This document shows, piece by piece, positions 46,110-48,051 of a DNA stretch of 64,000 nt. Both the position numbers and the translations under genes were made by a program. Location: NCBI RefSeq assembly GCF_902832845.1, contig NZ_CADFDB010000008.1, forward strand, positions 186,001-250,000, written 5' to 3'. Source of the DNA: Burkholderia metallica (lineage in GTDB: Bacteria > Pseudomonadota > Gammaproteobacteria > Burkholderiales > Burkholderiaceae). The notes below the pieces were generated by a model. It saw only the letters and a program-made list of their open reading frames with translations. It was not told the DNA's origin and made no database searches. How positions within the stretch are numbered: position 1 is the first letter of the stretch; every line of letters starts with the position of its first letter.

Positions 46110-47063
46110 TCAGACGGCGAACGCGCCGTCGAACACGATCCGTTCGTCGAGCGCGAGCGTGCCGCGCGCAAAGATCAGGTCGAGATGGTGGCTGCCGTTT
46201 TCGCCGCCGCCGAGCCCGAGGTGCAGGCCCGGATGACGTTCCTCGAACCCCGCGTTGCGGCCGTACAGCCCGCGAATCCCGAGGTTCGTGCCGATGCCGA
46301 ATTCCTCGATCCGCCGGTGATTCGCATGCCGGTCGAGATAGGTCGAGAAATCGCGCCGGAAGCCTTCGTCGTCGGTGTCGAAATCGACGATCGTGCTGTT
46401 CTCGACGCGCAGGGTCGCCAGGCGTTCGACGACCTTGTACTTGATCGCGAACGGCACGGTGCCGAGAAACGTGCCGCTGAACACGACCGAGCCGTTGAGG
46501 TCGGTCACGTGCGTCGCGATCTCGCCGGGCACGACGTCGAGGTTGCCCATGCCGTCCACGCTCGTCCATTTCTGGTCGGGCGCAAGCGAGCCCGTGAGCG
46601 TGTTGCCGGCTTCGTCGACGAAGCGGATCTGCGACGCGCGCGAGGCCGCGTCGATCAGCCGGCCGTTGCGTGCGGCGATGTCGTCGAGCGATTCGGCGAA
46701 CGCCTCGTCGAGATGCGGGCCGTAATCCTTGAACAGTACCGACTTGCTCCAGTGCTCGACGATCGCGGGGCGGATCGCCGCGAGGAACGGCGGGCCGCTC
46801 GGCGACGGCTTCGGCAGGCACGACGAGTCGTACAGCAGCACGAACAGATCGGCGCGATCGAGCGCGGCGGCGATGTCGGCGGGCGGCGTGCTTTCGAGGC
46901 AGAGGGTGGTCGCGTCGAGCGAATCGGGCAGGGCGGAGAAGGCGCGCAACGCGATGTCGCGGTTGCGGATGTCATGGCCGACCAGCAGTTTTCCCGATTC
47001 GCCGCGCGCCAGCTTGTCGCGCAGCGCGGGGTGGAAGCCCAGCGCGCGGTGCAGGTTCAGCAT
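46110..47063 (-). CDS. M29 (aminopeptidase T/S)-like metallopeptidase
   Basis: This 317-residue protein resembles the C-terminal catalytic half of M29 aminopeptidases and keeps all expected metal ligands: E181 (VVPGEIATH), E254 (EEFGIGTN), H281 (GLHLGLGGG) and the HxD pair H293/D295 (SHHLDLIF). Full-size M29 enzymes are about 400 residues, so this is a short form. It has no signal peptide and acts in the cytoplasm. It is downstream of a 40-codon peptide gene with a hairpin between them and an Lrp-type regulator further up. In this setting it may trim or otherwise process the peptide (inference). An ordinary amino-peptide catabolic role is the alternative. Confidence 0.75.
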   Translation of the reverse strand: MLNLHRALGFHPALRDKLARGESGKLLVGHDIRNRDIALRAFSALPDSLDATTLCLESTPPADIAAALDRADLFVLLYDSSCLPKPSPSGPPFLAAIRPAIVEHWSKSVLFKDYGPHLDEAFAESLDDIAARNGRLIDAASRASQIRFVDEAGNTLTGSLAPDQKWTSVDGMGNLDVVPGEIATHVTDLNGSVVFSGTFLGTVPFAIKYKVVERLATLRVENSTIVDFDTDDEGFRRDFSTYLDRHANHRRIEEFGIGTNLGIRGLYGRNAGFEERHPGLHLGLGGGENGSHHLDLIFARGTLALDERIVFDGAFAV

Positions 47064-47080
47064 GCGTGTCTCCGGAAACG

Positions 47081-47104
47081 GCGGAAGGGCCGCAGCCCTT
47101 CCGC
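47081..47104 (-). terminator. 10-bp hairpin between peptide gene and M29-like gene
   Basis: Perfect arms GCGGAAGGGC / GCCCTTCCGC with the loop CGCA (or its complement) lie between the stop of the 40-codon gene and the start of the peptidase gene. There is no T-tract, so it would act as a partial terminator or as an mRNA end-protecting stem, giving more peptide message than enzyme message. Confidence 0.6.
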
Positions 47105-47121
47105 GAGAACGGTTGGCCCGC

Positions 47122-47244
47122 TCAGACCGGCCAGAGCGCGGTGCCGAACGGCACCACGGCGTCCTCGACCATCATGTCGACGGCCTCGGGATGCGTGTCT
47201 TCCTGCATCCAGTCAAGCAATTCGATCTGCTGAGTATCCTGCAT
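47122..47244 (-). CDS. 40-residue peptide, candidate RiPP-like precursor
   Basis: The ATG at 47244 has a perfect ribosome site (AGGAGG, 6 bases upstream). The product starts MQDTQQIELLDWMQEDTH and ends PFGTALWPV. It has nine acidic residues, no Lys, Arg, Cys or Ser, two Trp and a hydrophobic C-terminal end. It is far too acidic for a membrane peptide and has no signal sequence. An acidic leader-like N-terminal part plus a short hydrophobic core-like C-terminus is the layout of many RiPP precursors. Promoter, ribosome site and downstream hairpin all argue that it is expressed. I do not recognise a family. A regulatory leader cistron is the main alternative. Confidence 0.6.
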   Translation of the reverse strand: MQDTQQIELLDWMQEDTHPEAVDMMVEDAVVPFGTALWPV

Positions 47245-47595
47245 GTGAATCCTCCTGTGGTGAACATGAGCGTTTCAACATGAAAACGTGGCAGAAAAAT
47301 GGCCACTCCTCATTTCGCATTTCGTGAATGCGCGACGAGTGGCGTTGATATTAGTCTGACGAATTTGCGAATGCAATGCGTTGCAAGGTTTTTAGCCGAC
47401 GCGTGCTAAACAGCGGGGATTTTCGCTCGTGTGCGGTCAAGCACGGTTAAAGCGAATGACGGATTCGACGTCGTTTTTTTAATGACCGGATTCGGAATCG
47501 CCGCATCGCATTCGGCGTTTTTTCATCGGCAATTCAATCGGCTCGATCGTTGCGATCATTGCAATCGGCGACGCGCCGGCAATTCGACGCGCGTA
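47245..47595. other. 351-bp AT-richer leader region between lrp and the peptide gene
   Basis: It contains the promoter at 47348-47376, an untranslated region of about 95 bases, TTGC/GCAA dyads around 47365-47386, and runs such as seven T near 47474. The base composition is clearly lower in GC than that of the flanking genes. No other open frame with a ribosome site was seen. Confidence 0.5.
47348..47376 (-). promoter_or_regulatory. sigma70-type promoter of the 40-residue peptide gene
   Basis: On the minus strand the -35 TTGCAT (47371-47376) and the -10 TAATAT (47348-47353) are 17 bases apart, close to the sigma70 consensus and about 100 bases upstream of the peptide start codon. Confidence 0.6.
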
Positions 47596-48051
47596 TCAGC
47601 CGAGCAGCGCCTTGCCGATCGGTTTGGCCGGCTCGGAGCGCAGCACCAGCGACGTTGTGACCGCGCCGAAGCGGGCAATCGCGTCGATGAGGGTTTCCAG
47701 TTGCCCCGGTGTCGGCACGAGCACTTTCAGCAGGAAGCAATCGTCGCCGGTCATCCGGTGCACTTCGATGACGTGCGGCATCTCGGCGAACGCGCGCAGC
47801 GCGGGCTTGATATGTTCGTGCGTCGTCTTCAGCCGGATGATGGCCATCATCCCCAACCCGAGCGCGGCCGGGTCGATCCGCGCGCCGTAGCCCGCGATGA
47901 TGCCGCGCTCTTCCAGCCGCTTGACGCGCTCCGACGTGGCGGGCTGCGACAGCCCGATGCGCCGGCCCACTTCGGACAGCGGCATCCGCGCGTTTTCCTG
48001 CAGCGCTTCGAGGATCGAAAGATCCAGGCGATCGAGTTCTCCGTTCGACAT
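47596..48051 (-). CDS. Lrp/AsnC-family regulator
   Basis: This 151-residue protein has a helix-turn-helix (LDRLDLSILEALQENARMPLSEVGRRIGLSQPATSERVKRLEERG) and a RAM domain with the ligand-pocket segment MTGDDCFLLKVLVPTPGQLE. It is typical Lrp, distinct from the one at 23113. It is divergent from an alpha/beta hydrolase gene and upstream of the peptide/M29-like unit on the same strand, so it could control either. A 30-bp dyad lies at 48076-48105 in the divergent gap. Confidence 0.92.
   Translation of the reverse strand: MSNGELDRLDLSILEALQENARMPLSEVGRRIGLSQPATSERVKRLEERGIIAGYGARIDPAALGLGMMAIIRLKTTHEHIKPALRAFAEMPHVIEVHRMTGDDCFLLKVLVPTPGQLETLIDAIARFGAVTTSLVLRSEPAKPIGKALLG

Follow-up and report, generated by a model that had tools for sequence, protein, structure and literature searches.

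A gene for a 40-residue acidic peptide and a gene for a 317-residue metalloenzyme lie side by side on the reverse strand of a 64,000-nucleotide stretch of the Burkholderia metallica genome (assembly GCF_902832845.1, contig NZ_CADFDB010000008.1, positions 186,001 to 250,000; hereafter the window). The locus is likely to be a minimal two-gene precursor-maturase pair resembling those of ribosomally synthesized and post-translationally modified peptides (RiPPs), with the enzyme as putative maturase, whatever the exact reaction. In the best reading, the enzyme is predicted to act at the conserved peptide end PFGTA(L/M)W, which it probably converts to a small product. Like a RiPP locus, the pair links a short precursor gene to a dedicated enzyme gene. 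An earlier analysis of the same DNA (the sequence-only reading) had named a promoter, the peptide frame, a hairpin and the enzyme gene as parts of one locus, and all were found where it placed them, on the reverse strand (Table 1). It had also taken their order for the layout of a peptide-maturation operon. The conserved pair, the gene order and a fold link to the crocagin proteins CgnB and CgnE agree with this, whereas modification and release of the peptide, which would make it a RiPP proper, are steps that we infer. In the mainly open full-text literature, no paper on the peptide-enzyme pair was recognised by title or abstract.

Purifying selection acts on the 40-codon frame, which is a real gene. 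Burkholderia peptides were picked with a hidden Markov model (HMM), without the C-terminal motif as a criterion, which gave 104 copies (some genomes were fetched more than once), corresponding to 36 distinct DNA versions and 17 distinct peptides. Among the 36 versions, 25 of the 40 codons varied at position 3, 8 at position 1 and 6 at position 2, and the ratio of nonsynonymous to synonymous variation (pN/pS) was 0.138. Because third-position variation dominates and pN/pS is at this level, the frame does not occur by chance, and the check on the substitution pattern that had been proposed thus identified a coding gene. Across 45 distinct Burkholderia pairs with genes of equal length, the peptide had a pN/pS of 0.161 and the enzyme one of 0.213, and the enzyme gene is likewise under purifying selection. 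The perfect AGGAGG ahead of the frame and the lack of Cys, Ser, Lys and Arg in its 40 codons were as described before; at most other Burkholderia loci AGGAGA stands in place of AGGAGG.

A search for conserved C-terminal residues had also been suggested, and the C-terminal stretch proved to be strongly conserved across genera. Residues 28-38 (DAVVPFGTALW) did not vary in the 36 Burkholderia versions. In 28 aligned peptides from six genera, L9, W12, M25, T35 and W38 were invariant, and the conserved end reads (V/I)PFGTA(L/M)W, in which T and W never vary. Exceptions to the motif were VPVGTAMW in Xenorhabdus, VAFGTAMW in some Pseudomonas, IPFATALW in a second Burkholderia pair and, at single loci, GTSMW (L133) and GTAFW (L120). 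The motif Trp is followed by P or A and then by nothing or by one variable residue (V, L, F, I, M or H). The peptides are 37-45 residues long with a net charge of -7 to -10, and Tyr is absent from all 28 aligned sequences (alignment A3). In the 36 versions, pN and pS were 0.0512 and 0.412 in the first half of the peptide gene and 0.0138 and 0.138 in the second. The pN/pS of the two halves therefore differs little (0.124 and 0.100). In codons 21-40 (47125-47184) pS is about threefold below its first-half value, which would fit a constraint on the DNA or RNA in addition to that on the protein.

The peptide frame beside the enzyme homologues, another point that had been put forward for checking, was conserved in all six genera in which the pair was found. 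From a genome-collection scan, 80 loci out of 209 relatives were used (28 from Burkholderia, 2 Paraburkholderia, 12 Photorhabdus, 5 Xenorhabdus, 4 Chromobacterium and 29 Pseudomonas). The peptide HMM found a partner beside the enzyme at 28 of 28 Burkholderia loci and at 50 of the other 52. Both misses lie at contig edges: the contig of L121 starts 184 nucleotides (nt) before the enzyme match, and that of L132 ends 5 nt after it. At 66 of 67 fetched enzyme loci from genome searches (a set that counts genome G000 twice), the peptide was located upstream on the same strand at 60-80 nt by match ends. The one exception, L166, breaks off 5 nt beyond the match on the enzyme 3' side, which is where two Xenorhabdus loci bear the peptide.

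By genome, the peptide was found in 50 of 65 Burkholderia genomes (54 matches) and the enzyme in 51 (55 matches, 54 of them near-full), the single extra enzyme match being 84 residues long and coming from an assembly (G057) with about 1,100 contigs and 82% completeness. Profile searches of 298 Pseudomonas genomes yielded the enzyme in 107 and the peptide in 105. The two enzyme-only genomes hold remnants, of 28 residues in G493 and of 127 residues with a stop in G702, from which the pair seems to have been lost together. Neither remnant locus (L206 and L205, respectively) had a peptide match at E <= 0.001; a 17-residue piece upstream of the G702 remnant, at E 0.93 to the peptide model, is possibly a decayed peptide. 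In another Pseudomonas genome, G669, the enzyme match is split in two pieces and a peptide match is present. A second, diverged pair (peptide 50-53% and enzyme 47-49% identical) was observed in 5 of the 65 Burkholderia genomes, at loci L064, L065, L066, L067 and L068, one genome (G026) carrying solely this pair; the genes were duplicated as a pair. The pair is present in about one third of the sampled Pseudomonas species genomes and in most Burkholderia ones. Among 398 sampled Pseudomonadota genomes, the enzyme profile matched 8, one of which (G459) holds only a distant relative; the distribution is therefore patchy.

The two genes also diverged in parallel. Peptide distances tracked enzyme distances (Mantel r = 0.927, p = 0.0001, n = 22 pairs). 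In the enzyme tree, Xenorhabdus joins Chromobacterium and not Photorhabdus (96/93), and Paraburkholderia humisilvae joins Pseudomonas (100/99); long branches, including L065 and L131, leave some joins unsure. Peptide signatures (ETF instead of TH; AMWPF) mirror the groupings of the enzyme tree. Together, the tree and the matching signatures suggest that a two-gene cassette was moved by horizontal transfer.

Between the genes, the predicted hairpin of 10 bp with a four-base loop was found, beginning 17 nt past the peptide stop codon. A 61-nt stretch here folds at -33.2 kcal/mol (z = -3.25, 2 of 200 shuffles as good), and in 22 Burkholderia sequences the stem is nearly invariant with one compensatory change. 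All eight loci that were folded, which come from six genera, had an intergenic hairpin (z from -1.8 to -4.3), and the hairpin sequences were unrelated. The order precursor, hairpin, enzyme recurs with these differing hairpins. At L065, which carries the second Burkholderia pair, a T-run follows the hairpin, which makes it similar to a true terminator. A short frame with a strong Shine-Dalgarno sequence, a hairpin and then a gene would also fit a cis-acting leader open reading frame (ORF), an attenuator that governs the enzyme gene via the hairpin. However, Xenorhabdus L130 and L136 show the opposite order, with the peptide gene after the enzyme gene. Such a leader is disfavoured because the swapped order would break it, whereas a substrate or a subunit would survive. 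The amino-acid conservation across genera and the distance from the peptide stop to the likely enzyme start, which ranges from 57 to 203 nt across other loci, also speak against an attenuator. We consider it highly improbable and rejected it as largely refuted by the swapped order.

For the enzyme, the AlphaFold2 model reached a predicted local distance difference test score (pLDDT) of 92.7 and a predicted template modelling score of 0.89. Fold matches at E <= 0.001 comprised eight PDB chains, which belong to AmpS, CgnB, NicX and CgnE; two of these four kinds of structure, CgnB and CgnE, come from the crocagin RiPP pathway. Judged by its model, the enzyme is a metalloenzyme with the fold common to M29 aminopeptidases, NicX and CgnB/CgnE. 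The residues E181, E254, E275, H281, H293 and D295 were invariant in 28 of 28 aligned homologues (A1), and the same six positions (E/E/E/H/H/D) were kept in 10 of 10 sequences of an alignment including three distant relatives. In CgnB, the metal residues given in the crocagin paper are Glu161, Glu252, Glu274, His280, His291 and Asp293 (PMC10070186). A search of PDB sequences with profile A4 placed CgnB and CgnE as the top two (E 0.3 and 0.5, over 42-53 positions) and aligned E275, H281, H293 and D295 directly with CgnB metal residues, whereas E181 and E254 were paired with CgnB ligands by order and spacing only. PDB sequence searches with the enzyme or with profile A1 returned chance matches only, and CgnB and CgnE were not among the matches of A1 alone.

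The sequence-only reading had described a short M29-type enzyme with all five metal ligands. The fold and the ligands are there, but the ligands number six, and "M29-like" is right for the fold but finds no Pfam counterpart: none of 28 family members matched PF02073 (M29) at E <= 1. The genome containing the window has no PF02073 match, and Pfam, NCBIfam and PHROGs gave no usable match for enzyme or peptide. Compared with AmpS, AmpT and PepS of M29, the enzyme has the same fold, is 80-96 residues shorter than the solved chains compared and differs in being paired with a peptide gene. The fold is no warrant for aminopeptidase activity, because CgnB and CgnE, which share it, showed none (PMC10070186). 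A distant same-fold clade of 376-397 residues (L172:7969-9159, + strand; L203:8353-9534, - strand; L204:8501-9628, + strand) has the same six ligands and CCG-motif ends (DDCCGLLR, RSCCGTN and DDCCGVM, respectively). No peptide of this type was found beside this CCG-tailed clade, within which L172 matches PF02073 at E 5e-4 but stays under the curated cut-off. Two Pseudomonas genomes (G496 and G566) also contain a distant relative of the enzyme, with no peptide match nearby (E <= 10).

The M29 fold with all ligands, the tight pairing of both genes and the hydrophobic C-terminus of the peptide would also suit a peptidase that degrades a harmful or unwanted peptide, either in a toxin-antidote-like pair or in signal-peptide degradation. 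This is clearly improbable, since the peptide is acidic and each of its halves evolves under purifying selection, unlike a fast-changing toxin. M29 enzymes are exopeptidases, which likewise counts against degradation. PADLOC did not match the peptide and gave the enzyme only a weak Cas2 label (E 0.002 over 39 residues), which was absent in the one Pseudomonas homologue scanned and was taken as chance. In a phage collection no match to the peptide was found at E 0.01. The enzyme matches three Burkholderia "plasmid" records, each >3 Mb and without annotation at the site, which are probably second chromosomes.

NicX, a 2,5-dihydroxypyridine dioxygenase, had the highest VIA-align Z of the fold matches (21.4), and the overall fold is the same. 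A NicX-type Fe(II) dioxygenase could be imagined to open the aromatic ring of the conserved Trp of the peptide. NicX, however, binds mononuclear iron via His265, Ser302, His318 and Asp320, as stated in its paper (PMC7910607), against the CgnB-type Glu/Glu/Glu/His/His/Asp here, the two being compared as residue sets and not residue by residue. The available NicX text mentions no peptide partner, unlike the situation of the present enzyme (PMC7910607). Membership in the NicX group is not supported by the predicted ligand set, and we regard ring opening of this kind as improbable.

Among the closest known systems is the crocagin pathway of Chondromyces crocatus (PMC10070186). There, CgnB and CgnE bind the precursor, and CgnB is proposed to act after an oxidation by CgnC, in a metal-assisted elimination next to the C-terminal Trp. 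Homologues of CgnB/E were described in about 100 genomes, Beta- and Gammaproteobacteria included, and putative precursors for single-copy homologues were reported in supplementary data (PMC10070186). Some of the present loci may be in that supplementary list. In structural comparison, the enzyme is 13-16% identical to CgnB/CgnE, against 21-42% among the reported single-copy homologues (PMC10070186). The crocagin precursor is basic, has 21 residues and ends in IYW, whereas the peptides here are acidic, longer and end in TA(L/M)W(P/A)x; they are also strongly conserved, unlike the crocagin precursor. Crocagin clusters hold two CgnB/E copies and each locus here a single enzyme copy. In 27 neighbourhoods the longest ORFs were taken as genes, a procedure that sometimes picked the wrong strand because the DNA is rich in G+C. 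These neighbourhoods contained no second enzyme copy, and no CgnC-, CgnD-, CgnI- or CgnL-type neighbour was recognised, neighbours not having been annotated one by one. The pair thus lacks the two copies and the Tyr-Trp core that define crocagin-like clusters. By its modelled structure it resembles the CgnB part of crocagin and may work alike.

On the precursor-maturase reading, a single promoter would yield the peptide mRNA, and the hairpin after the peptide gene would end or stabilise most transcripts, leaving the peptide in excess over the enzyme. The acidic N-terminal part with the invariant L9 and W12 would serve as an enzyme-binding leader. The enzyme, with a six-ligand, probably dinuclear Zn/Co site like that of CgnB, would then hold the (V/I)PFGTA(L/M)W stretch in or near the metal site. 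A metal-assisted reaction, Lewis-acid or hydrolytic, would most likely take place at the T35-A-L-W38 end and can be likened to the proposed action of CgnB beside the crocagin Trp. General proteases, or the enzyme itself, would finally release a small Trp-containing product.

Several observations weigh against this reading. The Tyr-Trp end and the basic leader of the crocagin precursor CgnA are both missing, and crocagin biosynthesis requires CgnC, CgnD and CgnE. Foldseek template modelling scores were moderate (0.51-0.59, root-mean-square deviation 6.0-8.6 A), and the sequence E-values to CgnB and CgnE were not significant. No third gene was common to all genera compared in the 27 neighbourhoods, and no shared oxygenase, exporter or leader protease was recognised beside the pair, most neighbours having been left unannotated; linked genes for export or leader removal are common in RiPP systems but not obligatory. 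The pN/pS of the second half of the peptide (0.10-0.12) is barely under that of the first (0.12-0.14); the gap is small because synonymous change is also low in the second half. In a read-through model of the Xenorhabdus L130 enzyme fused through a linker to its peptide, the peptide had pLDDT <50 except for residues 398-410 of the fusion (mean 64). This model gives no support for docking of the C-terminus; with confidence around the L..W block only, it mildly favours leader binding over docking in the active site. Finally, conservation extends over much of the peptide and takes in the leader, a pattern that would fit a protein subunit as well.

The strongest rival is accordingly a peptide that acts as a small, permanent and unmodified subunit or activator, with the enzyme acting on another small molecule or peptide. 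The conservation along most of the peptide, the 1:1 co-occurrence and the coevolution fit a subunit equally well, and in the fused model some confidence was reached by the N-terminal L..W block alone. However, T35 and W38 are invariant at the extreme C-terminus of a peptide that ends one or two residues past the Trp, the recurrent intergenic hairpin suggests more peptide than enzyme, and CgnB and CgnE, among the nearest solved relatives, serve a RiPP precursor. We regard a subunit as rather unlikely, but as an alternative to be taken seriously.

More tentatively, the precursor-maturase pair might represent a new RiPP class, and we would put this somewhat below an even chance. In such a class, a lone CgnB-like dinuclear metalloenzyme, without an oxygenase, would mature the C-terminus (V/I)PFGTA(L/M)W of an acidic precursor to one conserved small molecule, encoded by a horizontally spread two-gene cassette. 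The product would then be a signal, cofactor or metallophore rather than a diversified antibiotic and would be common to Burkholderia, Pseudomonas, Photorhabdus, Xenorhabdus and Chromobacterium. PqqA of pyrroloquinoline quinone biosynthesis is a comparable short, strongly conserved precursor that leads to one conserved small product, with enzymes that differ from those here. Should the peptide be turned into a product, an undescribed ribosomal metabolite would be shared by common bacteria associated with soil, plants and insects. The pair would also be a simple setting for learning the role of the CgnB-type metal site, the function of which needs further study according to the crocagin authors (PMC10070186).

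Table 1. Features of the peptide-enzyme locus (positions in the window) and amino-acid permease genes at other loci (positions within the named locus)
Feature	Position	Strand	Basis
-35-like hexamer TTGCAT	47371..47376	-	sequence; conserved among 29 aligned Burkholderia upstream regions
-10-like hexamer TAATAT, 17 bases from -35	47348..47353	-	sequence; conserved in the same 29-region alignment
Shine-Dalgarno AGGAGG of peptide gene	47251..47256	-	sequence
Gene of 40-residue peptide, putative precursor, including stop	47122..47244	-	ORF, homologues, pN/pS; ATG at 47244
Conserved C-terminal part of the 40-residue peptide, DAVVPFGTALWPV			
Intergenic hairpin, 10 pairs, 4-base loop, without T-run	47081..47104	-	fold z, stem conservation
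Shine-Dalgarno GGAG of enzyme gene	47070..47073	-	sequence; invariant in 22-sequence alignment A5
Gene of 317-residue CgnB/M29-fold metalloenzyme, including stop	46110..47063	-	ORF, alignment, AlphaFold2 model, fold matches
Predicted enzyme ligands	E181, E254, E275, H281, H293, D295		
AA_permease gene near pair	L134:2683-4104		Pfam
AA_permease gene near pair	L129:7224-8792		Pfam
AA_permease gene near pair	L130:10069-10932		Pfam

For the sigma70-like promoter that had been proposed upstream of the peptide gene, the hexamers, their 17-bp spacing and their conservation were found, but the hexamers match the sigma-70 consensus weakly, and a sigma-70 scan at default settings returned 0 sites at the locus (0.2 expected). 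In the 29 aligned Burkholderia upstream regions, ATTGC.. and TAatATC form conserved islands. Because this -35/-10 pair is conserved amid variable upstream DNA, the promoter appears credible by conservation, not by consensus.

In the neighbourhoods, the enzyme itself formed a gene group that spans genera, as did ORFs antisense to the pair (at 9 loci), an amino-acid permease and a sodium:solute symporter pair. At L084 and L143 an antisense ORF displaced the enzyme in the gene calls. The permease was the sole neighbour family shared by two genera at several loci. It is no more than about 5 kb away from the pair at 8 of 11 Pseudomonas loci and at 2 of 3 from Xenorhabdus, with differing sides and distances. 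The symporter pair was seen at L069 (Burkholderia) and L129 (Xenorhabdus), Pfam having been run on L129 only. Both groups were tentatively taken as chance neighbours. An operon with an lrp, a major facilitator superfamily (MFS) or a GCN5-related N-acetyltransferase (GNAT) gene was considered and rejected, none of the three being present in eight loci outside Burkholderia. In the window, a gene for an Lrp/AsnC-family regulator (47596-48051, - strand) is located upstream in the same direction. Among Burkholderia loci, partly from the same species, lrp was near the pair in 0 of 15 (L069-L083) and in 14 of 28 (L084-L111).

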